A DNA stretch of 64,000 bases from Nitrospira sp. Lineage in GTDB: Bacteria > Nitrospirota > Nitrospiria > Nitrospirales > Nitrospiraceae. Below, one piece after another: positions 4,682 through 55,225 of this stretch; positions within the stretch are counted from its first letter, which is position 1; the number at the start of each line of letters is the position of its first letter. The notes beneath the pieces were generated by a model. That model worked only from the letters and a program-made list of their open reading frames with translations, had not been told where the DNA came from and did no database searches. The stretch is taken from assembly GCA_013140455.1 (NCBI GenBank), contig JABFSU010000024.1, positions 1 to 64,000 on the forward strand, in the 5' to 3' direction. A program made the position numbers and the translations under genes.

Positions 4682-4714
4682 CCCCAGTTACGCCGATATT
4701 AAGTTCGGGTAAAT
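4682..4714 (-). promoter_or_regulatory. Candidate Pho box upstream of the barrel gene at 4599
   Basis: Read on the minus strand, three consecutive 11-bp units begin ATTTAC, CTTAAT and CGTAAC, each with the TAAC-like core in the same phase. The 11-bp period equals that of PhoB half-site repeats. The box faces the gene starting at 4599. Confidence 0.6.
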
Positions 4715-4733
4715 TTGAAGGAGGGCGGAGAAC

Positions 4734-5618
4734 TTAGCGCAGTTCATACGTCAACGTGGTGTTCTGAGCTGCGCGAACGACATCCACTTTGACCGTCCGT
4801 TCATTGACGACCTGATTGAACATGCCGAGCAGGCGACCGGGGTCTCGAATTTCCACCCCGTTGATGCGCTGGATCACATCGCCATACTGGAAACCGGCCT
4901 TGTCGAAGAACCCGCTGGGATTGACGAAATCGAGGCGAAATCCCTGCATCGCCCCGTTCTGAATATAGGGGACCGCGTGGGCCTGCAGGAGCAGCTTCGA
5001 GGGGTCTTTCACCGCCTCCACGACTTCCCGCCGGTCGAGCGTGCGCTTCGCGGGGGATACATAATTAGCAGGCGCTTGAGCCGGCATGCGGGACGGGGGC
5101 GGCGCCTCTTCGCTCTGAAGCAACGCCAGTCCGAGAACTTCTTCCTGATCGCCCTGGCGGATCAGAATGCCTTCCCGGCGAAGCTCGCTCACTTCTCCGA
5201 CGTTCTCGATGATTTCACGCAGGCGCACCAGGTTCTGCCGTTTCGAGGCGATGTCTTCAACGACCGCGAATCCTTCCCCGCGAGCGTCGAGCATGGTGCC
5301 GAGCAACCGGAGTTTCAGCCCGATGTTGAGCGGCGGCCTTGCCGGTTTTGCCTGGGATTCGCCGGCCGGACCGGCGAACGCCTGCGCGGGGAGCTGGAAA
5401 AGGCCGCTGTGCGTGATCTGTTCCACAAACTGAATCGGCGTTTCCCCTGATGCGATCGTGCTGTCCGCGGTTACGGGGGGAGTGACCGCGTCCAACGGCA
5501 TCGCCGTCAGCGAATGTGCCACAAAAGCGTTGATCGAATGCGCGACAAAAAAAGTGGCGATCAGAAGATACAGCAGAATCACGCACCGGCGGACAGTGAT
5601 CGAAGGCATGGGCGTCAT
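4734..5618 (-). CDS. Orphan GspC-like type II secretion protein with PDZ domain
   Basis: 294 aa. A short cytoplasmic N-terminus, one membrane helix (residues about 12-34), a Pro-rich linker, then a homology-region domain (KLRLLGTMLDARGEGFAVVEDI, LREIIENVGEVSEL) and a C-terminal PDZ domain (GFRLDFVNPSGFFDKAGFQYGDVIQRINGVEI) give the full GspC/PulC architecture. GspC normally links the inner-membrane platform to the GspD secretin and helps select substrates. No other type II secretion gene is in the window, so partners must be elsewhere. It is divergent from the TPS operon at 5855. The start at 5618 has a weak AGGA four bases away; ATG at 5609 is possible. Confidence 0.82.
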   Translation of the reverse strand: MTPMPSITVRRCVILLYLLIATFFVAHSINAFVAHSLTAMPLDAVTPPVTADSTIASGETPIQFVEQITHSGLFQLPAQAFAGPAGESQAKPARPPLNIGLKLRLLGTMLDARGEGFAVVEDIASKRQNLVRLREIIENVGEVSELRREGILIRQGDQEEVLGLALLQSEEAPPPSRMPAQAPANYVSPAKRTLDRREVVEAVKDPSKLLLQAHAVPYIQNGAMQGFRLDFVNPSGFFDKAGFQYGDVIQRINGVEIRDPGRLLGMFNQVVNERTVKVDVVRAAQNTTLTYELR

Positions 5619-5690
5619 TATTCCTGGTGAATGGCGCGGTCGACATCAACCTAGGGCGAGCCGGGCGCAATAACAAGGGGTGACAGAGCC

Positions 5691-5745
5691 GTTTACGAGA
5701 AATTAACAAGGCCCCAAGTTGTCAGTAACGCCGGCGTAACATGTC
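5691..5745 (+). promoter_or_regulatory. Candidate Pho box upstream of the TPS operon
   Basis: Five consecutive 11-bp units begin GTTTAC, ATTAAC, CCCAAG, AGTAAC and CGTAAC. Four of the five have the TAAC/TTAC core at the same offset. The array ends 109 bp before the start codon of the transporter gene at 5855 and lies between it and the divergent GspC-like gene. Confidence 0.65.
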
Positions 5746-5854
5746 GCCGATACTTTGATCCGCGAACGATGCGAAAGGGCCTTGTTCCAGAGCCGTCCGG
5801 AGTGCATGGCGGCGGGGTGGCCGGGCAAGAATCATCAGAGGAAAGCGATGGCAC

Positions 5855-7684
5855 ATGGGCAAGTGGTCTTGGGGAGCGTCGGTGGCGGGCGGTTTGATCG
5901 TGATCAGTACAGGATTCGGAAGCGCCTGGGGGGCCGCCGAGTTTCCCGTTCGGCCGGTGCTTCCGGAAAAGCCGGTGTTGCCGAGTCCGGCTCGACCGGC
6001 GTCGCCGGCAAAATCGCCCGCGGTGAATCGGGCGGCCGATCCTCTGCCGGCGCCTTCGTCCGGAGGTATCTCCGAGTCGGGCGAGGCCGGCGGGTTCGCC
6101 ATTCGAGAATTCGTGGTTGACGGCAGCACCCTGCTCTCGCCGGCGCAGATCGACCAGGTGCTGGGCAAGTACAAAGGCCAGCACAAGAAGATCGGAGATG
6201 TCGAGCAGGCCCGGATCGAATTGGAGAAAGCGTATCAAAAACTGGGCTATCCGACGGTTCTGGTCGTCGTCCCGGAACAGACGGTTGAGGAAGGTTCGGT
6301 CAGGTTCAACGTGATCGAGGCTCGGCTCTTGCGCGTGGATGTCAAGGGGAACGAGTATTTTTCGCGCTCCAACATTTTGAGCAAGATGCCTTCGGTGCAG
6401 ATCGGGGCCTTGCTCTATGAGCCGGAATTTGTGAAGCAGCTCAATATGGTCAATGCCAATCCTGATTTGAAGATAGCCCCCGTGCTGAAGCCCAGCAGCG
6501 AGCCCGGCATGGTCGATCTGGAATTGAAAGCGAAAGAGCGTATGCCGTTGCACGCCAAGGTCACCGGCGACAACAAGGGCCCGTTCACGACCCCGGCCGC
6601 TCGGGTCACATTCGAAGCGCAATACGCCAACCTGTGGGACGCCGATCATATTCTCACGGTGCAAACGACGCAGACGCCGACGAACTGGGGCGGGGTCCAG
6701 GCCTATGGCTTCAGTTACGTCGCGCCGCTGAGCTGGCCGGATCATCTGTTGGCGGTGTATGCCTCGAAGGTCAGCAGCAACTCGACGCTGGCCGGCACCT
6801 CTCTGCCGATCGGCGGCGGCGGCGATATCGCGGTGGCCGGCAACGCGACCGTCGGCGGCTTTCGATATCTCTTTCCGATTTTCAAGGGCGGCAAGGCGAC
6901 GCATCAAATATCGCTCGGGGTCGACTTCAAACGGTTGGAGAAAACCGAAGCGACATTTCCGGGGAACCTGGGAACGATCATTGTGTTGAGCCCGATCCAA
7001 TATACACCGGCGTCGGTGGGCTATACGGGTACCTATCCCGACGCCCTTGGAACGACCATGTTCACCGTCTCGGCCACCGGATATGCGGCAGGGCTGATTC
7101 CCGGCGGGCGAAAGCGCGACTTCCAGGGAGACCCCAACGATCCCGATAATTTCCCCGGCAACCGCGCCGGATCGACCGGCACGTTCGGCGTGGTCAAGAC
7201 CGGCCTCAGCCGGATACAGCCCCTGCCGATGGACTTTCTGTTCTCGGCCAGGATCGACGGTCAAGTGGCGAGCGAGCCGCTGATTCCGGCGGAACAATAT
7301 TTCGCCGGAGGAATGGATACGGTGCGCGGCTACATTCAAAACGAAGCGCTGGGAGACAACGCCTTGTTCTGGCGCGCGGAACTGTACACGCCGGACCTGC
7401 CGTCCATTCCGATCGATTATTTCTGGCAACGGCGGCGCAGTTCTGAGGTGAAAGCCACCATCAAGCTGGTGGCTTTCTACGACTATGCCAGGCTCTGGAC
7501 GAAAGAGGCGCCGATCGGCCAGCAAGATATCTCACGGCTCGAAGGCGCCGGCGCCGGCCTGCGGATGAAGATCGAGCCGATCAACCTGAGTCTCCAGTTC
7601 GATCATGCTGTGGCGCTGCAGCCGACCGGAACCACCAAGCGCGGCGACATGTTTTCGCATTTTCTGGTCAGCATTGGATTTTAA
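5855..7684 (+). CDS. Two-partner secretion outer-membrane transporter (TpsB/FhaC family)
   Basis: 609 aa. A signal peptide ending about residue 27 (GSAWGA) is followed by a Pro/Ala-rich linker to about 75, two POTRA domains (about 80-150, FAIREFVVDGSTLLSPAQID; about 155-225, RLLRVDVKGNEYFSRSNI) and a 16-strand barrel. The conserved loop-6 motif is present as VRGY in GGMDTVRGYIQNEALGDN. The protein ends in SIGF, a terminal aromatic beta signal. It should export the exoprotein encoded 20 bp downstream. ATG at 5855 is used; an AGAGGAAAG stretch lies upstream. First gene of an operon with the exoprotein, ExbB, ExbD and TonB. Confidence 0.9.
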   Translation: MGKWSWGASVAGGLIVISTGFGSAWGAAEFPVRPVLPEKPVLPSPARPASPAKSPAVNRAADPLPAPSSGGISESGEAGGFAIREFVVDGSTLLSPAQIDQVLGKYKGQHKKIGDVEQARIELEKAYQKLGYPTVLVVVPEQTVEEGSVRFNVIEARLLRVDVKGNEYFSRSNILSKMPSVQIGALLYEPEFVKQLNMVNANPDLKIAPVLKPSSEPGMVDLELKAKERMPLHAKVTGDNKGPFTTPAARVTFEAQYANLWDADHILTVQTTQTPTNWGGVQAYGFSYVAPLSWPDHLLAVYASKVSSNSTLAGTSLPIGGGGDIAVAGNATVGGFRYLFPIFKGGKATHQISLGVDFKRLEKTEATFPGNLGTIIVLSPIQYTPASVGYTGTYPDALGTTMFTVSATGYAAGLIPGGRKRDFQGDPNDPDNFPGNRAGSTGTFGVVKTGLSRIQPLPMDFLFSARIDGQVASEPLIPAEQYFAGGMDTVRGYIQNEALGDNALFWRAELYTPDLPSIPIDYFWQRRRSSEVKATIKLVAFYDYARLWTKEAPIGQQDISRLEGAGAGLRMKIEPINLSLQFDHAVALQPTGTTKRGDMFSHFLVSIGF

Positions 7685-7704
7685 GCCGGTCGAGGAGAAT
7701 CGCG

Positions 7705-10700
7705 ATGAAGATGAATAGGACCACGCGCCGGGTGAATGCCATACGCCGCAAGGCGGCGGTAGGATTGGTTTGGATACTGTCCGCGAACCTGGCGCTGCCG
7801 GTGCAGGCCGCCGTCACGATCACGGAAGTCGTTCACGGCGGGGTGACCGTGCAAGCGCCGGTCACGAGAATCGACGGAAAAGTAGTGACCGAAATCGCGC
7901 AATCGACGGCGAGGGCCATCGTGCACGCGAGCGATTTCAATATCGCGCCGAATCACATCGTCAACATTACACAGCCGGTCGGAGGCTGGATGCTCGCCCG
8001 CGTGTTCGGGCCTGCGACGCAGATAGACGGAGCGCTGAACGCGACGGGGTCGTTCATTCTGCTCAACCCCAACGGGGTCTTCATCGGGCCGGGAGGGCAA
8101 GTCAACGTCGGTGGCATGTTCGCCGCCTCGACGCTCAACCTCAGCAACGGCAATTTCCTGAACGGTATGTACTTATTTCAGGACAGCGGGACGAACGGTG
8201 TCATCAAAAACGCCGGCACTGTCAATGCGGGCATCGAAGGCGTCTATCTGTTCGCGCCGAACGTGGAGAATGCGGCGACCGGCATCATCACCAGCGCGAA
8301 CGGCCATGTGTCGTTGGGAGCGGGAAACACGGCCTTTCTCTCCAATCGCCCGGACGGGAAAGGCTTTCTCTCTCAGGTGACGGCCCCGGCCGGCGAAGCC
8401 TTGAACCTGGGTTCCCTCTTCGCCGACGGCGGTCAGGTGACCATGGCCGGGCGCGTGGTGAATCAGTCCGGCATCGTTCAAGCCAACAGCGTCGTGCAAC
8501 GCAACGGCCGTATCGAGTTGGTGGCGAGCGAACAGGTGGTCTTGGCAGCAGGGAGCCGGACCATCGCCCAAGGAAACGCCGCCGGTGCGCATGGCGGGAC
8601 GGTCATCGCAAAAGCCGCGACTCGCGATCAAAGCGGTAATCGAACCGGCGGAACTGTCGCAGTCGAATCCGGCGCGACGGTCGATGTGACGCCCGGCGCC
8701 GGAGGCGTGGCCGGTGAGGTCTGGCTGGGTGGAACCGCCGTGAGCCAGAATGGGATGGTCCTGGGCACGATTCACCGGCTCATTCCCGATCAGGTGACCC
8801 TGTCCGACGGGGAACTCTTTTCTCTCGCGCCGGGCGTGGCGCGCGGAGAAGTCAACGTGCTGGCGATGGACGATATAGACGTTGAGACCACCGCTCCCCT
8901 CGATGTGCTGGGGCTTCCGTTCGGTCAGGCAGCGACGTTTCATCTGGACGCAGGCCGCCACCTGAAGTTTACCAACAGCGATTTTAAATCGTTCGGGGGC
9001 CAATGGCACATAGTCGGCCGCGCGGGGAAAGATGTCACTATCACGGCCTCGGAGATCAGCGCCGCTTCGCGCGGGAGCATCCATCTTCATGGGGGTGGAA
9101 GTTTGTCGCTCGTCGACGCGTCGGGCAGGACGGCAAAAGTCAACACGGCCTCCGGTGGCGGCGATGTCAGTCTGACCGCCGTCGGGGATGTGGTGCTCCC
9201 CGGTCCGTTTGGAACCGTCAGCGACGACGGACTCACTCTGCCGGGAGTGCACATTGGTATTCCGGGCAACCTCACGGTCCGGGCCGGAGGAGATATCCGT
9301 GGATCGGGCGGCAGCCGCGACACGCGGGGCCCGGGCTTCACCTTGCAGGGTGGTACGGCGGATCTGGCGGCAGGACGGGACATCGGATCCGAGCAGACTC
9401 CCTTAAGCATTGTGGTGGGGGGGCTGGTGACGAACCCGGACGGCTCATCCGGCGTGACGAAAACGGACGTGTCCATCAAGGCCGGCCGGTCGTTGTATTT
9501 CGGATTAGCGGAAGACTACGGCCTCCGGGAGTTCCAGACCTTGACGGCCGACAGCCGCTTGACCCTCATCGCCAGGACCGGAGACATCCTGATAAAACCG
9601 GGAAAGGTCACCGGAAGCTTCGCGCAAGCGAGACGCATTTTCCCGGCCTCCTTTACCGCGCAAGCTGACGAAGGCAGTGTGATTTTTGAAACCGGAACGA
9701 CGCCACTTTCCTTCTGGCCTTCCAGCACCGGGGACATCAGGATTCATGCGAAGCAGGACATCAGGGGGCAGGGATCGGTCGAACAGGTGATCGATTTCAA
9801 TTCGGTCTTGATCTTTGTGGGGACCCCGGGAGATCCAGCGGCCCACTATGTCCGGATCGGCCGGGACGAGGCGCTGGCTGACCCGATTTTGGCCCGCTGG
9901 TTTGCGCAGTATGGAGACCTGAGTTTCGTCAACGGGGCTCCGCTCAATCCGCTTCCCGGCAACATCGTGCCTCCGGCGAATGTGCAGAACAAGCCGACGG
10001 TCACGGTGCGAAGCCAGACCCCGGCGGTCATTCGGCTGAACGGGGGAGACGTCGATGCGTTGATGGGAACCACCTTCAATACCGAATCCGAGCTGTCTGC
10101 CGTGTTGAATCCCAACCCGCCGCTCCCGGCTTCTGCGGCGCCTGCCCGGTCGGTAAGCCTGACGACGGAGACCGGGGATATCAGCCGGCTGCAGCTGGAT
10201 TTTCTGAGCTACCGATTCTGGAAAGAGGTCGTGCTCTCCGCCGGTCGGGACATCCAGGGATTGTTTGCCAAGTTCCTCGTCCCGCTCCTCTCTGGGGGAA
10301 ATCCAGCGGTGCGGGTCCATGCCAAAGGCAACATCGATATGAAAACGGAGAACGGCAACGCCGGCATGATCTTTGTCGGTCAGGGGACGGGAGAGATCCG
10401 GGCCGGTGGCAACATCGATCTCGCGAACAGCGCCGGTATCGAGCACAAGTCGAGAGATGGAGTCAGGTCCGAGGAGCTACAAGGAGGTCTGCTCGACATC
10501 GGTGCCGGCGGCAATATCGAAATGACTGAATCGCGGCTCTCGACGGTCAACGGAGGGAGCATTTTTATCCATGGAGCGGACGGAGTCCGGATCGTCGACG
10601 CAGCAGGACGGCCGATCCAGGGAGCGGTGGAGACGAAGGCGGTGCTGATCGATCACGCCGGGACGAAAGTCCTGGCCCTGCCCGATCAGCAGGGAACCGC

Positions 10701-12054
10701 GGCGCCGGTTCAGGCCTACAAGACGAACCTTCCCGTGGATCAGGCCAATCCGGGCCAAGCGCTGTTCACGCCTCAGGACGTGACCAATGGCCAGGTCGAA
10801 TTGGTCTGGAAGCCGCTCTTTGTTGAGCAAACCGGCCAGTTGTTTCTGGTCGGCGGAGAGCGGGTAAAACAGGGAGATCAAATCGGCTTCAATCAGAAGG
10901 TCGTTCTTGTGGATCTCAACCCGGCTCGCGCGGCCGACGGCAGCGCCATCCTGGCGAACGGCCGTCCGGCGCTCATCGACGGCAAGCTGGCGCTGCGCGT
11001 CGATGGACAGACCGTCGCGATCGTCTCCCCGGTCGGCGGCAAGGTCAACGTCGGAGGGAACGCCGGGAACCGGGCGGAACAGACCGGCATCACCACATTA
11101 CGCGGCGGCAACATCACGCTCCTTTCTACAGGTGATGTAAATGTGAATAAGTCGCGGGTTGGTACTTTCAATACGGGCGACATCATAATTAAATCAACCT
11201 CGGGAACGATTAATGCCGGCAGTGGCAGCAAGAATGAAAGTTCGATCTTTCTCATTGATAACGGAGACGGGACTAATACGGTTGCCACGGTTCCGGGCAG
11301 CGGGATCTTTACCTGGCATCGGGATGATCCAGACTTGACGAAATTGCCGTTTCCTTCGTTCAACACCCCCCAGATGGACGCGCTCTTTGCCCGCATTACC
11401 AAGCGCAGGTTTCTCGGTCGGGATGCAAGCGATCTGGTAGTGGAATTTGATCGGCTGACGGCCCTCCGCAAGGTGGAATACGACGTGATCTTCGAGAATT
11501 TCATTACGACGCCGAGAGGTCCGAAAAACCTTCCGTTGCAGCTTGGGGATATCTCCTTGATTGCAGCGAAGGACATTGATGTTCCAGAGGCAGGCATCAG
11601 GGGAAGGCGAATCAATTTGGAGGCGGGAGACGCCCTCAATCTCCTGGGTGGGTCGATCATCGGAAAGACCACGTTCAGCGCGTCGTCGGTATCCGGATCT
11701 CTCGGCGCCTTCGCAGGCGCCGCGGCGGGTTCGGTCGGCGGCGCCTCCGTGTCGGCGGCCGGCGGCGCGGGTGGCGGCTCGGTCGGCGGATTGAGCGGGG
11801 CCACCTCGACCGTGTCGGCCACGGCATCCAGTACCAGCAGTACGTCCTCCTCGGCGTCGAAGGCTGTGGAACAGGTACAGCAAACTGCTGCGGAATCGAC
11901 TGGATCATCGGCGTCGAATCCCGGGAAGCAAGTTGCGTCCAACGACAGTGGAACGGACAAGAAAACGCAAATGGCCAGGTCGGTGCAAATGAAACGGGGT
12001 GTGGTGATTCAGGTAGACGTGAAGCCGCAAGCCCAACCGCAACCGGGCAGCTAA
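7705..12054 (+). CDS. Filamentous-haemagglutinin-type TPS exoprotein (TpsA)
   Basis: 1449 aa. After an extended signal peptide (basic NRTTRRVNAIRRK, hydrophobic core, VQAA) comes the TPS secretion domain (about 35-170) with FNIAPNHIVNI and the hallmark NPNGVFIGPGGQVNVGGMFA. The body is Gly-, Val- and Asn-rich beta-helix sequence with recurrent NITLLSTGDVNV-like and GGNIDL-like turns. The C-terminus (from about residue 1310) changes to a low-complexity Ala/Ser/Gly tract and then a Ser/Thr/Gln-rich tail, perhaps a surface stalk. No toxin, RGD or anchoring domain is evident. GAGGAG precedes the start. Likely a secreted or surface-held adhesin or scaffold; ligand unknown. Confidence 0.88.
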   Translation: MKMNRTTRRVNAIRRKAAVGLVWILSANLALPVQAAVTITEVVHGGVTVQAPVTRIDGKVVTEIAQSTARAIVHASDFNIAPNHIVNITQPVGGWMLARVFGPATQIDGALNATGSFILLNPNGVFIGPGGQVNVGGMFAASTLNLSNGNFLNGMYLFQDSGTNGVIKNAGTVNAGIEGVYLFAPNVENAATGIITSANGHVSLGAGNTAFLSNRPDGKGFLSQVTAPAGEALNLGSLFADGGQVTMAGRVVNQSGIVQANSVVQRNGRIELVASEQVVLAAGSRTIAQGNAAGAHGGTVIAKAATRDQSGNRTGGTVAVESGATVDVTPGAGGVAGEVWLGGTAVSQNGMVLGTIHRLIPDQVTLSDGELFSLAPGVARGEVNVLAMDDIDVETTAPLDVLGLPFGQAATFHLDAGRHLKFTNSDFKSFGGQWHIVGRAGKDVTITASEISAASRGSIHLHGGGSLSLVDASGRTAKVNTASGGGDVSLTAVGDVVLPGPFGTVSDDGLTLPGVHIGIPGNLTVRAGGDIRGSGGSRDTRGPGFTLQGGTADLAAGRDIGSEQTPLSIVVGGLVTNPDGSSGVTKTDVSIKAGRSLYFGLAEDYGLREFQTLTADSRLTLIARTGDILIKPGKVTGSFAQARRIFPASFTAQADEGSVIFETGTTPLSFWPSSTGDIRIHAKQDIRGQGSVEQVIDFNSVLIFVGTPGDPAAHYVRIGRDEALADPILARWFAQYGDLSFVNGAPLNPLPGNIVPPANVQNKPTVTVRSQTPAVIRLNGGDVDALMGTTFNTESELSAVLNPNPPLPASAAPARSVSLTTETGDISRLQLDFLSYRFWKEVVLSAGRDIQGLFAKFLVPLLSGGNPAVRVHAKGNIDMKTENGNAGMIFVGQGTGEIRAGGNIDLANSAGIEHKSRDGVRSEELQGGLLDIGAGGNIEMTESRLSTVNGGSIFIHGADGVRIVDAAGRPIQGAVETKAVLIDHAGTKVLALPDQQGTAAPVQAYKTNLPVDQANPGQALFTPQDVTNGQVELVWKPLFVEQTGQLFLVGGERVKQGDQIGFNQKVVLVDLNPARAADGSAILANGRPALIDGKLALRVDGQTVAIVSPVGGKVNVGGNAGNRAEQTGITTLRGGNITLLSTGDVNVNKSRVGTFNTGDIIIKSTSGTINAGSGSKNESSIFLIDNGDGTNTVATVPGSGIFTWHRDDPDLTKLPFPSFNTPQMDALFARITKRRFLGRDASDLVVEFDRLTALRKVEYDVIFENFITTPRGPKNLPLQLGDISLIAAKDIDVPEAGIRGRRINLEAGDALNLLGGSIIGKTTFSASSVSGSLGAFAGAAAGSVGGASVSAAGGAGGGSVGGLSGATSTVSATASSTSSTSSSASKAVEQVQQTAAESTGSSASNPGKQVASNDSGTDKKTQMARSVQMKRGVVIQVDVKPQAQPQPGS

Positions 12055-12071
12055 TCGAAAGGACAACGCAG

Positions 12072-13571: not shown

Positions 13572-13724
13572 CAGGATGCTGAAAAAGTCTGCCAGCGTTA
13601 ATGGAAGGTTAAGGCTGAGGCTGAGTTCAGAAAGTCTGGATTTTGCTCAACCTTAACCTTGACCTCAGCCTAGTCTCATCTCGCTCGCTACGGCCTTGCT
13701 GCCCAGTCTTTTTGAGCATCCTGC
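13572..13724. repeat. Inverted-repeat element, family A copy 2
   Basis: The left arm CAGGATGCTGAAAAAGTC starts at 13572, the base after the TAG stop of the ExbD gene; the right arm AGTCTTTTTGAGCATCCTGC ends at 13724. An inner pair (AAGGTTAAGGCTGAGGCTGAG against TCAACCTTAACCTTGACCTC) makes the element one long imperfect hairpin. Confidence 0.85.
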
Positions 13725-14681: not shown

Positions 14682-14747
14682 CGCAACACAGCGGCAACGC
14701 ACTGTTAACGGCTCTCGAATAGGGGGATGACGTGGCTGTAACACGAG
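14682..14747 (+). promoter_or_regulatory. Candidate Pho box, six phased units, upstream of VPLPA-CTERM gene
   Basis: Six consecutive 11-bp units start CGCAAC, GGCAAC, GTTAAC, TCGAAT, GATGAC and TGTAAC, with the YAAC-like core at a constant offset in at least four. It lies in the gene-free spacer 14545-14894, about 150 bp before the start codon at 14895. Confidence 0.6.
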
Positions 14748-18321: not shown

Positions 18322-18387
18322 GATGACAAAATCTTGATCGAAAGTTAATCGAACCAGGATCAAAAGTTTACACGGTTGTTATTCATG
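18322..18387 (+). promoter_or_regulatory. Candidate Pho box, six phased units
   Basis: Six consecutive 11-bp units start GATGAC, CTTGAT, GTTAAT, CAGGAT, GTTTAC and TGTTAT, an NNTRAY-like core at constant phase in most units. It precedes the gene at 18713 by about 325 bp, implying a long leader. Confidence 0.55.
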
Positions 18388-18520
18388 GCTTCCAGAATGG
18401 GTTTGCCGGGATGTTCAGATCCGTGGCTTGTTACGAAATGCAACCTAGAACGGATTCATCGAAGCGCATCGGTTCATTTTTACCCGCCTACGCAGGAAGC
18501 CATGGAGGAATACGAGCGGG

Positions 18521-19516: not shown

Positions 19517-19712
19517 TTAACCCGCATTATTCATGACGGTTCGTCGCGAAATCGTCGAGCCACGTCGCGAGAGCGGCGCGCGGAGCCGTGAGGACCGGAG
19601 GCGTACTCGTGCAGTCCGTCGAGGGTCCGAGGGGCGAGCCCGTCGACCGAAGGCTTGTCGCAGCAGCGGATCGGCGATTGCAGCAGAAACGCTCATGAAT
19701 AATGCGGGCTAA
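19517..19712. repeat. Inverted-repeat element, family B (MITE-like)
   Basis: Arms TTAACCCGCATTATTCATGA (19517-19536) and its complement ending GCGGGCTAA (19693-19712) match at 19 of 20 bases and bound 196 bp. The right arm contains the TAG stop codon (19711-19709) of the minus-strand gene at 19709. There is no open frame that looks like a transposase, so it is a non-autonomous element or a long structured tail. Confidence 0.85.
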
Positions 19713-20737: not shown

Positions 20738-20799
20738 ATGTTTCGTCTCCGTACAACCGGTATTCAACGTGGGGGGCGCCGGTTACAGCCGACAGCGAG

Positions 20800-20821
20800 T
20801 CTCTGTAAATAAATCGTTACA
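20800..20821 (-). promoter_or_regulatory. Candidate Pho box upstream of the module-repeat gene
   Basis: On the minus strand two adjacent 11-bp units begin TGTAAC and ATTTAC with the core in phase, about 63 bp before the ATG at 20737. Shorter than most arrays in the window, so less certain. Confidence 0.4.
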
Positions 20822-20955: not shown

Positions 20956-20988
20956 TGCAACCAGGCCTTAACGAATCCGTAACAGCGG
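20956..20988 (+). promoter_or_regulatory. Candidate Pho box at the head of the exopolysaccharide cluster
   Basis: Three consecutive 11-bp units begin TGCAAC, CTTAAC and CGTAAC, all with YAAC at the same offset. They end 57 bp before the first gene of the cluster at 21046. The spacer 20738-21045 holds nothing else that I recognise. Confidence 0.6.
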
Positions 20989-21045
20989 GAGCGTAGGGTT
21001 TGCGATTGATTACCTTCGATCGGTCCCGATGAAGGAAGGCGTTCC

Positions 21046-28563: not shown

Positions 28564-28585
28564 TTTAACGATTCGTTAACACAAA
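28564..28585 (+). promoter_or_regulatory. Candidate Pho box inside the exopolysaccharide cluster
   Basis: Two adjacent 11-bp units begin TTTAAC and GTTAAC (a weaker third, CTTGAG, follows) 91 bp before the start codon at 28677. This suggests that the second half of the cluster has its own promoter. Confidence 0.5.
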
Positions 28586-28676
28586 CTTGAGCTTGGCGTG
28601 GCCTGTCGATCGGGCGGACTCGCTAGACTTGGCCTCCCATGGATCCGGCGTCGTGCGTATCACCAGGAGGTCTGTG

Positions 28677-29477: not shown

Positions 29478-29525
29478 GGCTCGATGGGACAGCAGCACGA
29501 AATAGAATTCTCCGGAGTGACGTCC

Positions 29526-41148: not shown

Positions 41149-41192
41149 GTTAACGGAGACCGGAACTGATCGTAACCCGGCTGTAATCGTCT
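41149..41192 (+). promoter_or_regulatory. Candidate Pho box upstream of the OprP-like porin gene
   Basis: Four consecutive 11-bp units begin GTTAAC, CCGGAA, CGTAAC and TGTAAT; three share the TAAC/TAAT core at the same offset. The array ends 49 bp before the start codon at 41242. Confidence 0.65.
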
Positions 41193-41241
41193 CGACCTAT
41201 TCTGCCGGTCTCTGTATGTGACCGTGACGGAAGGGATGTGC

Positions 41242-44555: not shown

Positions 44556-44624
44556 CTTATGCATATCCTTATGCGAAGTGGGTATTCCAATAAACAGGAA
44601 TAACTATATGAATAAGGCGTTTCT

Positions 44625-44657
44625 GCCGTATTAGCAGCGTGTTAACTCAAAGTTAAC
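44625..44657 (-). promoter_or_regulatory. Candidate Pho box upstream of pstS
   Basis: Minus-strand units of 11 bp begin GTTAAC, GTTAAC and GCTAAT with exact phasing. The array is 70 bp before the pstS start codon at 44555. Confidence 0.7.
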
Positions 44658-44691: not shown

Positions 44692-44735
44692 GTTAACCGA
44701 CAATTTACATGTCCATAAGGGCAGGTTAACTCCGG
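44692..44735 (+). promoter_or_regulatory. Candidate Pho box upstream of the divergent PhoB-family regulator
   Basis: Four consecutive 11-bp units begin GTTAAC, ATTTAC, CATAAG and GTTAAC at constant phase, ending 20 bp before the start codon at 44756. Together with the array at 44625-44657 it fills the divergent promoter region. Confidence 0.68.
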
Positions 44736-44755
44736 GTCAGTATTGTGACGACGCG

Positions 44756-45463
44756 ATGCATGCAACCATGTCGAGCCCAGCCCACGTTCCGGAATCTATC
44801 CTCATCTTCGTTCGAACGGATTCTTTCGCGCAATCGCTGAAGAAAGCGCTGGAGAGTAACGGCTACCGCGGCACGGTCGTGACGACTGAGTCCGCGGCGT
44901 TTACCGAGGCGAAAGCGTCGGTGCCCTCCCTGATTGTCATTGATCGTCAAACCGGGACCACCTCGAATCTGCGTAACCTTCGGACCTTGGCGACCGTTCC
45001 CATCGTTGCCATAGATGACACCGTGCCGGCTTGCAGTGAAGACGAATGCGTGCAGGACTACGATCGCGGGATCGATCTGGTCGTGTGCAGCCAGAGTACT
45101 CGTGAACTGGTGGCTCGAGTGCGTGCCATTCTAAGGCGGCGTGAAGCGTCGAGCGGCACCACGACACACTATGGGGTCGGCGATGTGAAAATGGATCTCG
45201 ATCGGCATGAGGTGACTGTGCAAGGGCGTCAGGTTGAACTCACGCCGAAGGAATTTCAAATTCTCCGCCAGTTTTTAGAGTCTCCCAGCCGTGTGTTTTC
45301 ACGCCAGGAAATGCTGAATCGCGTGTGGGGCGAGGGCTATGCGCTGGAAGAACACGCGCTGGACGTCCACATCCACTCTCTCCGCCACAAAATCGAAACC
45401 GATCCGACTCATCCTGCCCTGATCGTGACGGTGCGTGGTGTCGGGTATAAATTGCGGACTTAG
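44756..45463 (+). CDS. PhoB/OmpR-family response regulator with degenerate receiver
   Basis: 235 aa. The C-terminal winged helix is intact (LTPKEFQILRQFLESPSRVFSRQEMLNRVWG, HIHSLRHKIETDP, IVTVRGVGYKL). The receiver (about 14-125) keeps an aspartate at the phosphorylation position (SLIVIDR, Asp63) but lacks the usual acidic pair (IFVRTD instead of a V-D-D-D type) and the conserved Lys-Pro (VVCSQS in place of a T/A-K-P-F). It may therefore act without phosphorylation. It has its own Pho-type array and is divergent from pstS. No adjacent histidine kinase. Start 44756 has no clear ribosome site; 44768 is an alternative. Confidence 0.8.
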   Translation: MHATMSSPAHVPESILIFVRTDSFAQSLKKALESNGYRGTVVTTESAAFTEAKASVPSLIVIDRQTGTTSNLRNLRTLATVPIVAIDDTVPACSEDECVQDYDRGIDLVVCSQSTRELVARVRAILRRREASSGTTTHYGVGDVKMDLDRHEVTVQGRQVELTPKEFQILRQFLESPSRVFSRQEMLNRVWGEGYALEEHALDVHIHSLRHKIETDPTHPALIVTVRGVGYKLRT

Positions 45464-46151: not shown

Positions 46152-46303
46152 CTGTTCCTCCCTTTGTATTGTTGTATTATTCGCATTCTACACACCCGAG
46201 GTTGCGGCAGAGTTAGAGGTGGATTACCGATGCGTAAATTTCAAGTAGAGCGGGCCTGGTCTTGGGCCATGCCGGCGCCGGCCTTGGGAGGCCAAGACGG
46301 AAG

Positions 46304-48271: not shown

Positions 48272-48865
48272 TCAGAACAGATCGAATCGTATGTAGTCGG
48301 TCCGCGGACTTTGCCCGGCGCTATTGAAGGCGAATAGGGTTGCGTAGTAACTCTCCCCTTTCGGGAGGTCTACGGTGAGGCGGGTTTCAGGGCCGGTTTG
48401 GAATGTATATTGGGTTGTGGCAGACATCGTCGAGATCAGGATCTTGTATCCTACTGCATCGCCGGAAGGGCTCGGGTTCCATTCGAACGTGACCGGCTGA
48501 GTCTCAGGCTTTTCCAACGCCAGGGTTTGAGGCGGCGGGCCGGGGGGCATCTCTAAGGGCACCTCCATTGGAAGCCGGGTGGTCTCCGGTGATGGGAGTG
48601 AGGGAGCTGGCTCAGCGGGAACTGCGGAGGCCTCATCGCCGGGCGTCGCGGTATCTCCGGTCTGTTGTCCGGAGACCGGGGTGACGGACGGTTGTGTAGA
48701 AGAGGCCCCTTTCGCTCCGGAGGCCGGATCCTGCAAATCCCCGCAGGAAGCAGTGACGAGCAACAACCCGGTGAGAAGCGGCCATAGGATGGCACGAAGG
48801 GAGCCCTGCCGGTGCGGGATACCTGTAGGTGGGATGAATCGGGCCGTCGGTTGAGTCGTAGACAT
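48272..48865 (-). CDS. Fibronectin type III-like lipoprotein
   Basis: 197 aa. Long N-terminus with hydrophobic stretch and lipobox VTASC (about Cys41). A Pro/Glu/Ser-rich linker (about 45-115) leads to one beta-sandwich domain (TFEWNPSPSGDAVGYKILIST ... YYATLFAFNSAGQSPRTDYIRFDLF). Fibronectin-III modules usually mediate binding to other proteins or glycans. No enzymatic motif. The start codon at 48865 has only a weak ribosome site; a methionine further in would remove part of the signal. A four-unit Pho-type array lies directly upstream on the minus strand. Confidence 0.72.
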   Translation of the reverse strand: MSTTQPTARFIPPTGIPHRQGSLRAILWPLLTGLLLVTASCGDLQDPASGAKGASSTQPSVTPVSGQQTGDTATPGDEASAVPAEPAPSLPSPETTRLPMEVPLEMPPGPPPQTLALEKPETQPVTFEWNPSPSGDAVGYKILISTMSATTQYTFQTGPETRLTVDLPKGESYYATLFAFNSAGQSPRTDYIRFDLF

Positions 48866-48887
48866 CGCGGAGAGATATATAGAGGAG

Positions 48888-48931
48888 AAGCTGTTACGCG
48901 CCGCTCGGGTTGTTGTAACGGATGTGTTAAT
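48888..48931 (-). promoter_or_regulatory. Candidate Pho box upstream of the fibronectin-III lipoprotein
   Basis: Minus-strand 11-bp units begin ATTAAC, CGTAAC, CCCGAG and CGTAAC, three with the TAAC core in exact phase. It is 23 bp from the start codon at 48865. Confidence 0.65.
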
Positions 48932-50657: not shown

Positions 50658-50694
50658 CCCCGGCGCTCACGTCGCGGTCCCATCCGGTGCAGCA

Positions 50695-52788
50695 TCATCG
50701 CTCAAGCGGAGTCTGATTCCAGGTACCGGCCTGGTCGAGCATCAGTTGCTGGGAGTCGAGCGGCGTGTCGTTCGGCGGTGGCAGGACGCGCTCGTACAAC
50801 CCCTGCTCATTCATCCGGCGCAGGTGCGTCGTGTCGCGTAAATGCGGGAACAGAATGTGGTCGCGAATGGCCTGGCGCAGGTGCGCGGCTTCGATCGGGA
50901 ACACCGATTCGACACGCCCATCCAGATTGCGCGGCATGAGATCGGCGCTCCCCATCCATAACTCCTCTTTTTCCCGGTCGAACCGGAAATAGAAAATCCG
51001 GCTGTGTTCGAGAAAGCGGCCTACCAGCGACGTGACGGTGATTCGATCGCTGACGCCGGGGACGCCGGGGCGCAGTCCACAGACGCCTCGTATTTGCAGA
51101 TCGACGCTGACACCCGCCTGGGAGGCCCGATAGAGCGCCTGAATGCAGGCCGGATCGGTGAGGGCGTTGAGCTTCAAGGCGATATAGCCCTGTCCTGTCT
51201 GCAGGTGTTGAGCCGTGACCCGTTCGATGCGCTCGAGCATGCCGCTGCGCACTCCGCTCGGGGCGACCATCAGGCAGCGATAGGGATGCTCTCCGGCGTA
51301 TCCGGTCAACGCGTTGAAGAGCATGGCGACGTCGGAGGCGATGGCCGGATTGCTGGTCAGGAGTGCGAGATCGGTGTAGACGCGCGCGGTCGCAGGATTG
51401 TAGTTGCCGGTGCTGAGATGGATATATCGCGCGAGCCCGTGATTCTCACGGCGCACAATCAGGCACATCTTGGCATGTGTCTTCAATCCGACCAGTCCGT
51501 ATGCGACGTGCACGCCCGCCCGCTCCAATTCTTTGGACCATTGAATGTTGTTTTCTTCGTCGAAGCGAGCCCGCAGCTCGACCAGCGCGGTGACCTCTTT
51601 CCCGTTGTCCCTTGCCTGCATGAGGGCCTGCACGATGGGCGAAGCGAGCCCGACTCGATACAGGGTGATCTTGATGGCCAAGACCTGAGGATCGGCTGCC
51701 GCATTGCGGAGAAGATCGACTACCGGCTGGAAGCTGTCGTAGGGATGATAGAGCAGCAGATCGCGTTCTTGCATGACGGTGAAGAGATCCTGGCGAGCCA
51801 GGAGCGGTGAGACTTTTTGCAGCAGCGGTGCATCTTTCAGATCGGGCCGATCCAACTTGGTGAGTTCGATGAGATCGGCCATGCCGAGAGGGCCGTCCAC
51901 GGCGTCGATCTGGTCTGGGCCGAGGTGCAGGTTCTTCGCCAGAATCTCCCGGATCTGTTCCGGCATCGCCGCGCTGACTTCCAGGCGCACGGCGGAACCG
52001 AAATGCCGCTGACGAAGACTTTCCTGAATGGCTTGCAGAAGATCGGCGGCTTCGTCCGCTTCAATGTCGGGGTCTGCGTCGCGTGTGACCCGGAACGGAT
52101 AGGCCGTTGCGACTCGGCAGCCGGGAAACAGGAGATCCAGGTTGGCGGCGATGACTTCCTCGATCCATACAAAGCTGCCGGAGTTTCCGTCGGAGCCGCT
52201 CGCCGGTTGGACTTCACGCGGCACAGGAAGAAGACGTGGAAAGAGGCGCGGGACTTTCAGGCGCGCGAACCGTTCATGGTGCTCGCCGTCGTGCACCACG
52301 ATGGCGAGGTTCATGCACAAATTGGAAATATGCGGAAACGGATGGACGGCGTCGAAGGCCAGCGGGGTCAGGGCCGGGAGAATGGCGGATTTGAAATAGT
52401 CCCGGAGTCGCGCGATCGCTTCACTCGGAATCTCAGAGAGAGGCTGTACCTGAATGCCTGTCTCGCGCAACTTCGGCAGAAGATCGTCTTGCCAGCAGGC
52501 CATCTGCCGGGCCAGGAGGGGGGCAAGGGCCTGATGAATCGCCAAGATCTGTTCCGCCGGTGTGCAGCCGTCCGGCGGGGCTTCGACGGAGCCGGTTTGC
52601 TGCTGCCAGTAGAGTCCGGACATCCGGATCATAAAAAACTCATCCAGATTGCTGCTGAAGATAGAGAGGAATTTCAGCCGTTCGAGGAGGGGATGGCGCT
52701 GATCGAGCGCCTCTTCGAGCACGCGTTCGTCGAAACGAACCCAGCTCAGTTCTCGGTTGATGTAGAGAGACGGGTCCGTCAGGCTCAT
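50695..52788 (-). CDS. ppk1: Polyphosphate kinase 1
   Basis: 697 aa, normal length for PPK1. Reversibly transfers the gamma phosphate of ATP to polyphosphate. Signatures in order: YINRELSWVRFDERVLEEA (N-domain), FSSNLDEFFMIRMSGL, LLYHPYDSFQPVVDLLRNAAADPQVLAIKITLYR, the phospho-histidine site GLKTHAKMCLIVRRE, RYIHLSTGNYNPATARVYTDL (second active-site region) and DREKEELWMGSADLMPRNLDGRVE. Start ATG 52788 has AGAGGG upstream; 52821 would add eleven residues. A two-unit Pho-type repeat is upstream. Confidence 0.96.
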   Translation of the reverse strand: MSLTDPSLYINRELSWVRFDERVLEEALDQRHPLLERLKFLSIFSSNLDEFFMIRMSGLYWQQQTGSVEAPPDGCTPAEQILAIHQALAPLLARQMACWQDDLLPKLRETGIQVQPLSEIPSEAIARLRDYFKSAILPALTPLAFDAVHPFPHISNLCMNLAIVVHDGEHHERFARLKVPRLFPRLLPVPREVQPASGSDGNSGSFVWIEEVIAANLDLLFPGCRVATAYPFRVTRDADPDIEADEAADLLQAIQESLRQRHFGSAVRLEVSAAMPEQIREILAKNLHLGPDQIDAVDGPLGMADLIELTKLDRPDLKDAPLLQKVSPLLARQDLFTVMQERDLLLYHPYDSFQPVVDLLRNAAADPQVLAIKITLYRVGLASPIVQALMQARDNGKEVTALVELRARFDEENNIQWSKELERAGVHVAYGLVGLKTHAKMCLIVRRENHGLARYIHLSTGNYNPATARVYTDLALLTSNPAIASDVAMLFNALTGYAGEHPYRCLMVAPSGVRSGMLERIERVTAQHLQTGQGYIALKLNALTDPACIQALYRASQAGVSVDLQIRGVCGLRPGVPGVSDRITVTSLVGRFLEHSRIFYFRFDREKEELWMGSADLMPRNLDGRVESVFPIEAAHLRQAIRDHILFPHLRDTTHLRRMNEQGLYERVLPPPNDTPLDSQQLMLDQAGTWNQTPLER

Positions 52789-52895
52789 TGCGCATGGCCC
52801 TCTTTTGAGTGTGAACGGCACTGCCGGCGCGTGAATGTTCAGCCGGACATCGGTCGGCGCTAGGATAGTCAGGTCTCATCCGCTGCCTCAAGAGC

Positions 52896-52917
52896 GCACG
52901 GTTAATTGTGTGTTAAC
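52896..52917 (-). promoter_or_regulatory. Candidate Pho box upstream of ppk1
   Basis: Minus-strand 11-bp units begin GTTAAC and ATTAAC with the core in phase, about 108 bp before the ppk1 start codon. Confidence 0.55.
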
Positions 52918-52994
52918 TTTTTTCGGGAAGCACACAGCGTCTCTCATTGCGGGCAGATCGGCATCCGTCGAAACTCAGTGCCCCTAGTGAGGAG

Positions 52995-53252
52995 TCAGGA
53001 GAGCTGCAGTCTCTTCTTTTTCCACCGGTCGCTTCCATAGATCGGGGTGCGGGGCCGCCTCGTGAGCGGGTCGCGCCGGCGGGTCCGGTTATGGGCGATG
53101 AGCCGGTCAGTGATATCGCCGCAGTGAACGCATCGGAGTGCCAACACTCTCGTTCCTCCGTCGCTCATGATTTCCGGAACTCTCAATCCGGCACAGCGGA
53201 CACATTGGGTATCGCTTCCTTGACGGGTGTGGTTTTTAGAAATTCTTGCCAT
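52995..53252 (-). CDS. Small zinc-ribbon protein
   Basis: 85 aa. Two Cys pairs, CVRC (about 17-20) and CVHC (about 40-43), spaced about 20 residues, a classic zinc ribbon, followed by GDITDRLIAHNRTRRR and a basic tail. Such small proteins are common in Nitrospirota-like genomes; function unknown. GGAGG lies three to four bases from the ATG at 53252. Similar but distinct from the protein at 56860. Transcribed convergently with nothing; stands between spacers. Confidence 0.6.
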   Translation of the reverse strand: MARISKNHTRQGSDTQCVRCAGLRVPEIMSDGGTRVLALRCVHCGDITDRLIAHNRTRRRDPLTRRPRTPIYGSDRWKKKRLQLS

Positions 53253-53790
53253 ATTCCTCCGGTAGTCAGGTGATGTTCATGGTGGAGTGACCGGGGCTCG
53301 TCCCTTCTCCTGGCAGGAAGAGACGAGCGCGGGGGCCAGGTGCGTGAGAGGCGCAGCTGGGCTCCAATAGGGTGTCGTTGTTGTGCAGGGTGGCATGGCG
53401 TTAGTTCTGAGCTGTCTTTTGTTCGACCGTTGCTCCAGTGAGTCCGGCCGGGTGTCTACGTCGCAGAGAGATGGTTTGGGCCATTGGCTTGTTCCCCTTT
53501 CCAGGAGAAGTTGTACTAGATCAAAAGCACGATTAGATCACGACGGCCTCAATTCTTGGTTACAGGAGTTTGGGCATCAGCGCGCTGGTGCTGTAAAGGG
53601 ACGGAATGGGAGAGATGTAACCGGATTGCAATAGAATCTTGGTTCGCCTGTGATCTGCGTGAGGATGTGAACGAACGCGATTCTTTGGAATGCTTTGCGT
53701 GTTTAGCAGGAGAAACAATAGAGAGGAGAGGGAGTCCGGTCTTAGATGTGTATGAGATCCGCGCGGTGGCTGGGTGTGATGTCTGCGGCC
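53253..53790. other. Gene-free stretch
   Basis: 538 bp in which I see no supportable gene, RNA, repeat or Pho-type array. Open frames lack ribosome sites and recognisable protein features. Confidence 0.55.
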
Positions 53791-54111
53791 TTACCGACAG
53801 GCAATAGATTCCCATTTCTGCGAACGCAGCTCGGTGTCGAAATAGACACGATAGCCGACACAACGTGATTGTCCCGATAAAAATTCGTACTCCCAGGCTT
53901 CGGCTCCGTTCGACAGACGCTTGAGCCGTTGGGGATAGCCGAATTGGCGGGTCAGTTCGCTCTGCGTCAGTTGTCCGATGCTGGTTTCAAAATCATCTAC
54001 GCGAGGATGATGAGTGCAAGAGACGAGCAAAAGAAGGATCAGGAAGATCAGGCTGCTCTCTAGGCGGGGCCTTGTCTCGAGCTGTTGATAGAAGACGCGC
54101 ACAGAAATCAC
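53791..54111 (-). CDS. Small lipoprotein, OmlA/SmpA-like pattern
   Basis: 106 aa. GTG start at 54111 overlaps the stop of the regulator upstream (GTGA), so it is cotranslated with it. A membrane helix (SSLIFLILLLLVSC) ends in a lipobox Cys. Mature part: LTQSELTRQFGYPQRLKRLSNGAEAWEYEFLSG, similar in spirit to SmpA/BamE domains (G-x-P followed by W-x-Y), and SRCVGYRVYFDTEL. Perhaps an outer-membrane assembly or stress lipoprotein. Moderately sure that it is a gene; function inferred weakly. Confidence 0.6.
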   Translation of the reverse strand: MISVRVFYQQLETRPRLESSLIFLILLLLVSCTHHPRVDDFETSIGQLTQSELTRQFGYPQRLKRLSNGAEAWEYEFLSGQSRCVGYRVYFDTELRSQKWESIACR

Positions 54112-54818
54112 TTTGTCAGGGCCTGATCAGACAACTTATAGCCCAGCGATTTTACCGACACAATCGCATCATTCAGCGCAGGCAGTTTCTGTTTCAGGCG
54201 ACGGATGTGCACATCCACGGTTCTTGTGGTGCCATAATAATCATAGCCCCACACGGAATTCAGCAATACATCGCGTGTAAGCACTCGACCGGGGTTTCGC
54301 AGCAGATGTTCCAGGAGCCCGAACTCCTTGGCCGTCAGACCGACTTCTTTCCCATCGACCATGACTTCATGTCGTGAGAGGTCCATCAGCAGCGGGCCGT
54401 AGTGGTAGGACGTTTGGTGGGTGTCGTTGGCCCGCTCGATACGGCGAAACAAGGCTTTGGCCCTTGCGACGAGGTTCTTGGGGCTGAACGGCTTGGCGAT
54501 ATAGTCGTCGGCGCCGAGTTCGAGGCCGACAATGGTGTCGGACTCCTCCGCTTTGGCCGTTAACATGATAATGGGAAGAAGGGCGGTTTCCTGCTCGCTT
54601 CGGAGTTTCTTGCAGAGTTCCAATCCGTCCATCTCAGGAAGCATGAGATCAAGGATGACCATGTCAGGATGTTCGCTCTTGGTGAGCCTCAGGCCTTCGC
54701 TTCCCGTTTTTGCATGGACGGTACGAAATCCTTCTTTCTCGAGGTAGATCTTCACCAACTGTGCAATGTCAGTCTCGTCTTCCACGATGAGAATTTTCTT
54801 AGAAGCGTTTGTAGACAT
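54108..54818 (-). CDS. phoB: PhoB-like response regulator
   Basis: 236 aa. Complete receiver: ILIVEDETD acidic cluster, MVILDLMLPEMDG with phospho-acceptor Asp57, LTAKAEESD and Lys109 in DDYIAKPFSPKNLVARAKAL. Winged helix: LTAKEFGLLEHLLRNPGRVLTRDVLLNSVWGYDYYGTTRTVDVHIRRLKQKL, VKSLGYKL. This is the standard PhoB layout and the likely reader of the phased TAAC arrays in the window. No PhoR-type kinase lies nearby. It has its own upstream array, so autoregulation is likely. Symbol by similarity. Confidence 0.85.
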   Translation of the reverse strand: MSTNASKKILIVEDETDIAQLVKIYLEKEGFRTVHAKTGSEGLRLTKSEHPDMVILDLMLPEMDGLELCKKLRSEQETALLPIIMLTAKAEESDTIVGLELGADDYIAKPFSPKNLVARAKALFRRIERANDTHQTSYHYGPLLMDLSRHEVMVDGKEVGLTAKEFGLLEHLLRNPGRVLTRDVLLNSVWGYDYYGTTRTVDVHIRRLKQKLPALNDAIVSVKSLGYKLSDQALTK

Positions 54819-55225
54819 CGTGTGTTAACCGCTAAGTATACGCACTTGTAACTTCTCTTCGCTCTGCCAGCTCTTGCAGGATAATCCTCCAATGTTACAA
54901 ATGTATTAACTGCATGCCCGTTTGAATTGGAGGAATCACCGGTCATGTATGTAATGGCCGGTCATATGAATCGATGGCAATCCACTCTTGCTAAGTATGG
55001 GAGCAATTTCTGATTTTTCAGAGATTTCTGCCGGGATTGTCGTGAACGAAGCCGATTGATCAACGTCGTTCCATGCCCAGCCCTTGCCCGCTGATGTCAG
55101 GGGGCGGCTCAGAGCATGGTGCGGTCTAGGACAGCAAATTGTGCGAAAGAGACTGAATAGGCGGAAAGGGTGGTTTTTGAGTGAATTGAGAGGAGTGGAA
55201 GTGTAGTAAGTTTTTGAAGGGAATA
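54819..55225. other. Gene-free stretch upstream of phoB and downstream of tRNA-Phe
   Basis: About 400 bp. It contains the Pho-type repeat at 54889-54910; the rest shows no recognisable gene. A 116-codon frame running into the tRNA is an artefact of the tRNA sequence. Confidence 0.55.
54889..54910 (-). promoter_or_regulatory. Candidate Pho box upstream of phoB
   Basis: Minus-strand 11-bp units begin GTTAAT and TGTAAC with the core in phase, about 70 bp before the start codon at 54818. Short array; consistent with autoregulation. Confidence 0.5.

Follow-up and report, generated by a model that had tools for sequence, protein, structure and literature searches.

Four described systems come closest to the locus reported here. 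The PHO box of Escherichia coli is composed of 11-bp head-to-tail units with the half-site CTGTCAT, and in rhizobia an exopolysaccharide gene has a phosphate-responsive PhoB as one of its regulators (both from excerpts of PMC4415409). The cyanobacterial SphR box is given as CTTAACCT, with 8 bp followed by a 3-bp linker (excerpt of PMC1906773). The control described for PEP-CTERM/exosortase systems, in Proteobacteria, involves PrsK/PrsR with sigma-54 and a −24/−12 promoter (excerpt of PMC1569441). The stretch of DNA analyzed here, called the window, has 64,000 nucleotides and corresponds to positions 1–64,000 of contig C90 of a Nitrospira sp. genome (3.79 Mb in 143 contigs, 95.5% complete), or ~1.7% of that genome. 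It contains 13 intergenic arrays of TAAC-like units with an 11-bp period. We put the probability at roughly 0.85 that these arrays are Nitrospira Pho operators and that the window is a Pho island that includes surface genes and a second PhoB-type response regulator, PhoB2. Pho boxes and a PhoB among exopolysaccharide regulators are already known, and to our knowledge the rhizobial control involves no exosortase or PEP-CTERM-type proteins. What appears to be new, as judged from the sequence, is the inclusion of an exosortase/exopolysaccharide system in a Pho regulon.

All 13 arrays of the original prediction were recovered with their 11-bp period, and all recur at orthologous promoters in at least three related Nitrospira. 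Seven of them lie on the plus strand as first given, but six are better read on the minus strand (4682, 20800, 44625 toward PstS, 48888, 52896, and 54889). The 20800 array belongs to the fn3-like gene at 19709–20767 (−), and the 20956 array to the exopolysaccharide operon. Among same-strand TAAC pairs of the window, the distances were 11 bp (n = 7), 33 bp (n = 6), 34 bp (n = 3), and 22 bp (n = 2), and within the range of 4–39 bp all remaining distances occurred at most once; a palindromic site enters these counts on both strands. A unit matrix of seven columns was built from 34 units of 12 arrays. With this matrix, eight clusters of 11-bp pairs reached at least 17 bits in the window, against a mean of 0.1 and a maximum of 2 in 40 Markov shuffles.

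In the own genome, string patterns were searched genome-wide and matrix scans covered ~0.6 Mb of stretches. Outside the window, clusters of at least 17 bits were absent from 380 kb (19 further 20-kb stretches) and numbered seven in 186 kb, which comprised the surroundings of exact TAAC-N7-TAAC sites and the remainder of contig C90. Because the places of those sites were fetched apart into the 186 kb, the 380 kb were free of them and, taken alone, are an unfair sample that exaggerates the contrast; the fuller count is 7 clusters per 566 kb outside, against 8 in the 64 kb of the window. A matrix independent of the window, for which 32 units of pstS operators in other genomes were used, gave clusters of at least 10 bits nine times in the window, six times in the 380 kb, and 14 times in the 186 kb, which were mostly selected for containing pairs. 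The share of open reading frames (ORFs) with a pair of at least 12 bits within 300 bp upstream was 11/45 for the window, 0/279 for the 19 stretches, and 3/140 for the 186 kb. Since these ORFs (≥150 amino acids) were picked by length and the TpsB gene and the 18713 gene were missed, 11/45 is not the full tally of boxed genes in the window. Arrays were thus not equally dense elsewhere (3/419 ORFs in the 566 kb), so that the original prediction passes the refuting condition proposed with it, an equal density at unrelated genes. Two of the three boxed outside ORFs, on contig C1, are a Porin_O_P (OprP-like) porin gene and a PstS gene, each preceded by an array.

The three-unit pattern TWAY-N7-TWAY-N7-TWAY matched five times genome-wide, three times in the window and once at pstS (binomial 5e-5), and a pair of units with TANNNT 10 bp behind it matched six times, four of them in the window (binomial 1e-6); both patterns were derived from the window itself, which limits these values. 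TAAC pairs at 11 bp were unspecific by themselves, with 26 distinct sites in the genome and 20 beyond the window. Around these 20 sites, the matrix reached at least 15.5 on C1 (porin, PstS), on C53 near pst genes, on C26, and on C128, and also inside genes on C15, C36, and C142. The arrays at 14682, 18322, and 41149 scored just 12–14 bits and would not stand out singly; they are supported by conservation.

Relative genomes, contigs, and extracted loci are denoted by G, C, and L, respectively. The 13 arrays were all found at orthologous promoters of G029, G032, and G093, and eight were tabulated also in G065 and three in G025; the fn3b array of G065 scored 15.4 bits. The TAAC cores were identical to the window at 608 of 628 positions, compared with 858 of 1099 at other array positions (Fisher 2e-30), and the array flanks showed ~50% identity in ungapped comparison. 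When the phase was shifted, core identity had its maximum, 0.97, at the true phase and its minimum, 0.73, about half a period off. A TANNNT hexamer was located exactly 10 bp past the last unit in 6 of the 13 arrays, those of TpsB, the first exopolysaccharide operon, the OprP-like porin, PstS, PhoB2, and RR2, an OmpR-family regulator divergent from PstS. The predicted operator would consist of head-to-tail 11-bp units with the core NKTWAY (best GTTAACA), often two strong units to which one or two degenerate units (NTTGAT or TGTCAY, followed by a GGAAC-like unit) are added, the last ending 10 bp before the −10 hexamer in about half of the arrays.

The connection to pst genes was seen across the genus. 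A search for GTTAAC-N{2,12}-GTTAAC in 76 Nitrospira genomes gave 64 distinct sites; the gap was 5 bp in 35 of them and had some other length in 29 (at most seven for any one length). A PstS-type gene lay within 700 bp downstream of 27 of the 35 gap-5 pairs and of none of the other 29. The remaining eight gap-5 sites seem to represent a single element close to the pst operon: six lie 5–6 kb from pstS1 and share its contig, and the sites on C53 of the own genome and in G032 match some of them in sequence. In the two genomes inspected, this element was near pstA, pstB, and phoU, and the C53 site precedes a gene of the PsiE family and one that, judged by eye, appears to encode a CBS-domain protein. 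The best PstS matches of 79 genomes gave 30 loci that were scanned for an array within 450 bp upstream. An array of at least 17 bits was present at 26 loci, and a 27th (L199, 21.8 bits) lies about at the 450-bp edge; the other three are a contig edge (L210) and two gene fragments (L211 and L213). At one of the 27 arrayed loci (L215), the PstS gene is a distant paralogue. The 27 gap-5 pairs and the boxed porin and PstS genes of C1 support the phosphate regulon of the original prediction, and the domain matches agree with its naming of PstS, an OprP-like porin, and PPK1 among the genes reached.

When compared with the E. coli PHO box, the arrays share the 11-bp head-to-tail units, and the recognition-helix string RTVDVHIRRL is common to E. 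coli PhoB, PhoB2, and PhoB1, the PhoB encoded on contig C120. In E. coli, the last PHO unit lies ~10 bp before the −10 element, as at about half of the Nitrospira arrays. Also as in E. coli, the Nitrospira sites accompany pst genes, and a gene of the psiE family is close to one of them. The core had been described as differing from CTGTCAT; this applies to the main core, GTTAAC, but TGTCAC or TGTCAT occurs as the third unit in many of the pstS operators. The SphR box, as far as the excerpt gives it, has nearly the core of the Nitrospira units and the same 11-bp period. SphR, however, belongs to another phylum, and the Nitrospira set adds the exosortase/exopolysaccharide cluster and a second PhoB. 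Three features that mark a Pho regulon were found: tandem direct repeats of 11 bp, operators upstream of genes for high-affinity phosphate transport both in this genome and in its relatives, and, on the regulator side, a PhoB with the conserved recognition helix, an adjacent kinase, and a PhoU encoded in the genome. The gene that follows PhoB1 encodes a histidine kinase, called PhoR from position and domains alone, and PhoU_div and PHO4-family genes are nearby.

The same operator type extends to the exosortase XrtD. XrtD-like matches were present in 65 of 79 genomes, and the upstream regions of 66 of the 67 matches above 500 bits were examined (all except G019:C5). Among 56 XrtD genes placed on a tree, with up to 1.3 kb upstream scanned, 23 were boxed, 32 were unboxed, and one had no upstream sequence. 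All 23 members of one clade had the box and none of the 32 of its sister clade, and the split is a single branch with a support of 100/96; the distribution of the box corresponds to one change on the tree. In the boxed clade, the box lies before wecB in 7 genes and 48–87 nt before xrtD in 16, and TAGACT or TACACT was found 60 nt from its first base in all 23. The second XrtD of the own genome (C59) has no box, and none was seen within 1.3 kb upstream of ten further XrtD copies. Relatives of the window XrtD in Nitrospira sp. records were 85, 82, 72, and 60% identical. The sharing of the motif by two-partner secretion (TPS), VPLPA-CTERM-type, and exopolysaccharide genes, which had been the surprise of the original prediction, therefore holds, with 13 of 13 arrays conserved and the box in 23 of 23 genes of the XrtD clade. 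The assignment of the VPLPA-CTERM-type genes themselves is weak, with one of three scanned (14763) matching TIGR03370 at 21.6 bits, below the cut-off of 25.35. In addition, the xrtD operator (28564–28602 and orthologues) has a largely kept extension, CTTGA(G/T)-N5-CGTGGC, in phase with the units and with variants CTTAAG (G006, G011) and GATGGC (G063); it may represent degenerate units 3–4 or the site of a second factor. The start of wecB is probably near 28677 instead of 28587.

In the proposed mechanism, low phosphate would be sensed by the Pst/PhoU/PhoR branch and PhoB-type regulators would be phosphorylated. By analogy, their subunits would bind head to tail and recruit RNA polymerase, replacing the −35 element. 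The predicted binder is PhoB1 and/or PhoB2, with activation as the effect and phosphate as the signal. A single operator type would then serve PstS, the OprP-like porin, PPK1, the XrtD/exopolysaccharide operons, VPLPA-CTERM-type proteins, two-partner secretion, and PhoB2 itself.

PhoB2 was 76% identical to PhoB1, and no kinase-like ORF of at least 150 amino acids was seen by eye adjoining it. In a PDB search, RegX3 was the top match of whole PhoB2, and the DNA-binding domain alone also matched E. coli PhoB entries such as 1gxp. The original prediction had counted two PhoB-family regulators in the window; the product of 54108–54818 is a PhoB, but RR2, the product of 44756–45463, combines a degenerate receiver with another recognition helix. 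From a set of 58 PhoB paralogues, one at a contig edge was dropped and 57 were placed on a tree, where the promoter was boxed in 16: 0 of 33 on the PhoB1 side, and 16 boxed with 8 unboxed on the other side. The fork dividing the two sides is weak. In E. coli, the phoB promoter has a box; in Nitrospira, by contrast, the PhoB1 promoter is unboxed and the second paralogue is boxed. The array at the PhoB2 promoter could mediate autoregulation or control by PhoB1. Near PhoB2 of G003, a PhoX alkaline phosphatase gene was observed (L277:7379–9388, Pfam 511 bits), and, judged by eye, PhoB2 of G007 also has such a gene nearby.

A boxed PhoB2 was found in 12 of 14 genomes with a boxed XrtD and in 2 of 21 others, in a hand count of 35 genomes of the genus from which the partial XrtD matches of G010, G024, G028, and G034 were left out. 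In 9 of the 12, both genes are on one contig, 12–43 kb apart; with G025, whose box is degenerate, a PhoB2-side gene lies 12–43 kb from XrtD in 10 of the 14, as also in G093 and G065. We tentatively consider, at somewhat below even odds, that part of the genus has a private Pho branch for its exosortase-anchored matrix, in which the kinase-less, box-controlled PhoB2, a duplicated PhoB that usually lies near the xrtD cluster, would turn phosphate shortage into a change of surface and aggregation, replacing the PrsR/sigma-54 control of proteobacterial exosortase systems. In this reading, the receiver of RR2 looks inactive, and the protein may dampen or lock the PhoB2 switch.

A plausible, though rather doubtful, alternative is that the housekeeping PhoB1 alone reads the boxes and that PhoB2 is a further target or a feed-forward amplifier with no specificity of its own. 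PhoB1 and PhoB2 do not differ in their recognition-helix string, and therefore a single operator can serve both; moreover, boxed pstS genes occur in genomes whose examined matches included no boxed PhoB2 (for example, G022, G010, and G014). The co-occurrence of boxed PhoB2 with the boxed XrtD cluster, often close by, argues in the other direction, as it is expected if PhoB2 serves that cluster. It is improbable that RR2 is the reader of the boxes, integrating some signal that is not phosphate. Relatives of RR2 are divergent from PstS with arrays in between in seven genomes (G029, G032, G093, G065, G063, G003, and G060). However, its recognition helix reads HALDVHIHSL, the stretch after the phospho-acceptor position is missing in the aligned sequences (window, G029, G063, and G003), and the gene is itself preceded by an array. 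With its degenerate receiver and different helix, RR2 is more likely a target than a reader of the boxes, and it is possibly a phosphorylation-independent regulator.

The CtrA consensus, TTAA-N7-TTAAC, has the same 11-bp period and a matching core. A CtrA-type site was nevertheless rejected as very improbable because the host is a Nitrospira and not an alphaproteobacterium, and the gap-5 sites cluster at pst genes across the genus; PhoB2 scored 153 bits against a CtrA-model cut-off of 350, with no genome-wide CtrA search made. Least of all is the periodicity to be ascribed to chance or to AT-rich upstream composition, which, although some arrays are weak and all were originally picked by eye, is countered by the shuffles, the other spacings, the other upstream regions, and the recurrence in relatives, and is already refuted for the strong arrays.

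Several observations weigh against the arrays being Pho operators read by PhoB-type regulators, or against parts of that model. Strong arrays were also seen away from Pho genes: within genes of C15 and C36, next to a probable ArsR-type gene on C26, and before an unknown gene on C128. The measured conservation somewhat favors the cores, since it comes from close relatives for which the arrays served as anchors. Seven of the 13 arrays have no TANNNT exactly 10 bp past the last unit: the hexamers at 10 bp are poorer at 4682 (CATTCT) and 18322 (CAGAAT), the TATATA of fn3b is at 11 bp, TATCCT of PPK1 and TAGACT of XrtD (in phase) are 33 and 43 bp past two strong units, respectively, and no −10 hexamer was recognizable past the 14682 and 20800 arrays. 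With regard to the regulators, the PhoB1 promoter lacks a box, 8 of 24 rows on the PhoB2 side of the tree are unboxed, the PhoB2 of G025 has just a degenerate box of 9.4 bits, and G031 has a boxed XrtD with no boxed PhoB2 among the matches examined. In G060, which shares the RR2-PstS-OprP-XrtD gene order with the window, XrtD has no box within 1.3 kb and one ~5 kb upstream.

Table 1. Genes and operator arrays of the window; units are written in the reading direction, followed by the spacing to the −10 hexamer where given
Feature	Position	Strand	Assignment or context
TpsB transporter (two-partner secretion)	5855-7684	+	Pfam ShlB, TPS domains
TpsA exoprotein (two-partner secretion)	7705-12054	+	Pfam ShlB, TPS domains
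Exosortase XrtD, VPLPA-CTERM-specific	29484-31121	+	NCBIfam TIGR04152, 525 bits (cut-off 400)
OprP-like porin	41218-42681	+	Pfam Porin_O_P
PstS-like	43515-44564	-	Pfam/NCBIfam; TIGR02136, 194.5 bits, below cut-off 206.6
RR2, OmpR-family, degenerate receiver	44756-45463	+	divergent from PstS; domain search and alignment
PPK1	50695-52821	-	Pfam PPK1 domains
PhoB2, second PhoB-type response regulator	54108-54818	-	Pfam response regulator; NCBIfam PhoB, 244 bits (cut-off 296.2)
Array ATTTAC/CTTAAT/CGTAAC/CGTCAC, 10 bp, CATTCT	4660..4714	-	upstream of outer-membrane beta-barrel-like gene 3784-4599; in G029, G032, G093
Array GTTTAC/ATTAAC/(CCCAAG)/AGTAAC/CGTAAC, 10 bp, TACTTT	5691..5756	+	upstream of TpsB; architecture in G029, G032, G093
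Weak 6-unit array, no clear -10	14682..14742	+	upstream of VPLPA-CTERM-like 14763 and PstS-like 15670
Weak 6-unit array, 10 bp, CAGAAT	18322..18398	+	upstream of VPLPA-type gene 18713
Array TGTAAC/ATTTAC, no clear -10	20805..20821	-	upstream of fn3-like 19709-20767; in G029, G032, G093, G065, G025
Array TGCAAC/CTTAAC/CGTAAC, 10 bp, TAGGGT	20956..20999	+	promoter of first exopolysaccharide operon (from 21046)
Operator TTTAAC/GTTAAC/CTTGAG/CGTGGC; TAGACT 60 nt from first base	28564..28629	+	promoter of wecB-xrtD-exopolysaccharide export operon
Array GTTAAC/CCGGAA/CGTAAC/TGTAAT, 10 bp, TATTCT	41149..41203	+	upstream of OprP-like porin 41218-42681
Array GTTAAC/GTTAAC/GCTAAT/AGAAAC, 10 bp, TATAGT	44603..44657	-	upstream of PstS-like 43515-44564
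Array GTTAAC/ATTTAC/CATAAG/GTTAAC, 10 bp, TATTGT	44692..44746	+	upstream of RR2 44756
Array ATTAAC/CGTTAC/CCCGAG/CGTAAC, 11 bp, TATATA	48876..48931	-	upstream of fn3-like (fn3b) 48272-48865; in G029, G032, G093, G065
Array GTTAAC/ATTAAC; TATCCT 33 bp past second unit	52862..52917	-	upstream of PPK1 50695-52821
Array GTTAAT/TGTAAC, 10 bp, TATCCT	54878..54910	-	promoter of PhoB2

Besides the tabulated arrays, a strong two-unit pair (17.1 bits) lies at 13597–13613 (−) outside any clear promoter and is partly kept in G029, and a three-unit phased array at 46212–46237 (−) has no trustworthy downstream gene. On C26, three phased TTAA units (L055:437–464) adjoin a probable ArsR-type regulator (by eye) and may form an ArsR operator or a Pho box.

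The predicted control of the exosortase system resembles PrsK/PrsR in that a two-component system would govern an exosortase-based surface system. In contrast to the PrsK/PrsR-sigma-54 arrangement, the own genome showed no PrsR over the cut-off (best 467 bits against 502.6, in an assembly 95.5% complete), and sigma-54-like sites in the window were not in excess, with 5 weak matches against 10.7 expected. PrsR over the cut-off was found in 7 of 33 genomes, and in G003, G007, and G011, which have a boxed XrtD, it lies on a different contig. PrsR was located 1–3 kb from exosortase-type matches other than the boxed XrtD in G003:C56, G007:C37, G011:C18, and G012:C1, which suggests two separately regulated exosortase systems within a genome. 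The predicted control of exopolysaccharide by a phosphate-responsive PhoB would be shared with rhizobia, where it concerns a different gene cluster. No published Nitrospira Pho box was found among the matches listed, as judged by titles and outside the subscription literature, and the text matches to "PhoB" in the Nitrospira papers examined were to the program Phobius (in excerpts, that of PMC6606698 among them).

Nitrospira are major nitrite oxidizers that grow as flocs and biofilms, and we know of no established trigger of this growth form. In a chemostat, Nitrospira moscoviensis switched to a biofilm after 159 days and the switch could not be reversed (excerpt of PMC6606698). The conserved Pho-type operator before the exosortase/exopolysaccharide operon leads to the prediction that the phosphate level controls the matrix. 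The arrays would supply a Pho-box consensus for Nitrospira and, if the prediction is true, an exosortase system under a control other than PrsR. They suggest that phosphate shortage helps to decide when Nitrospira changes its surface.

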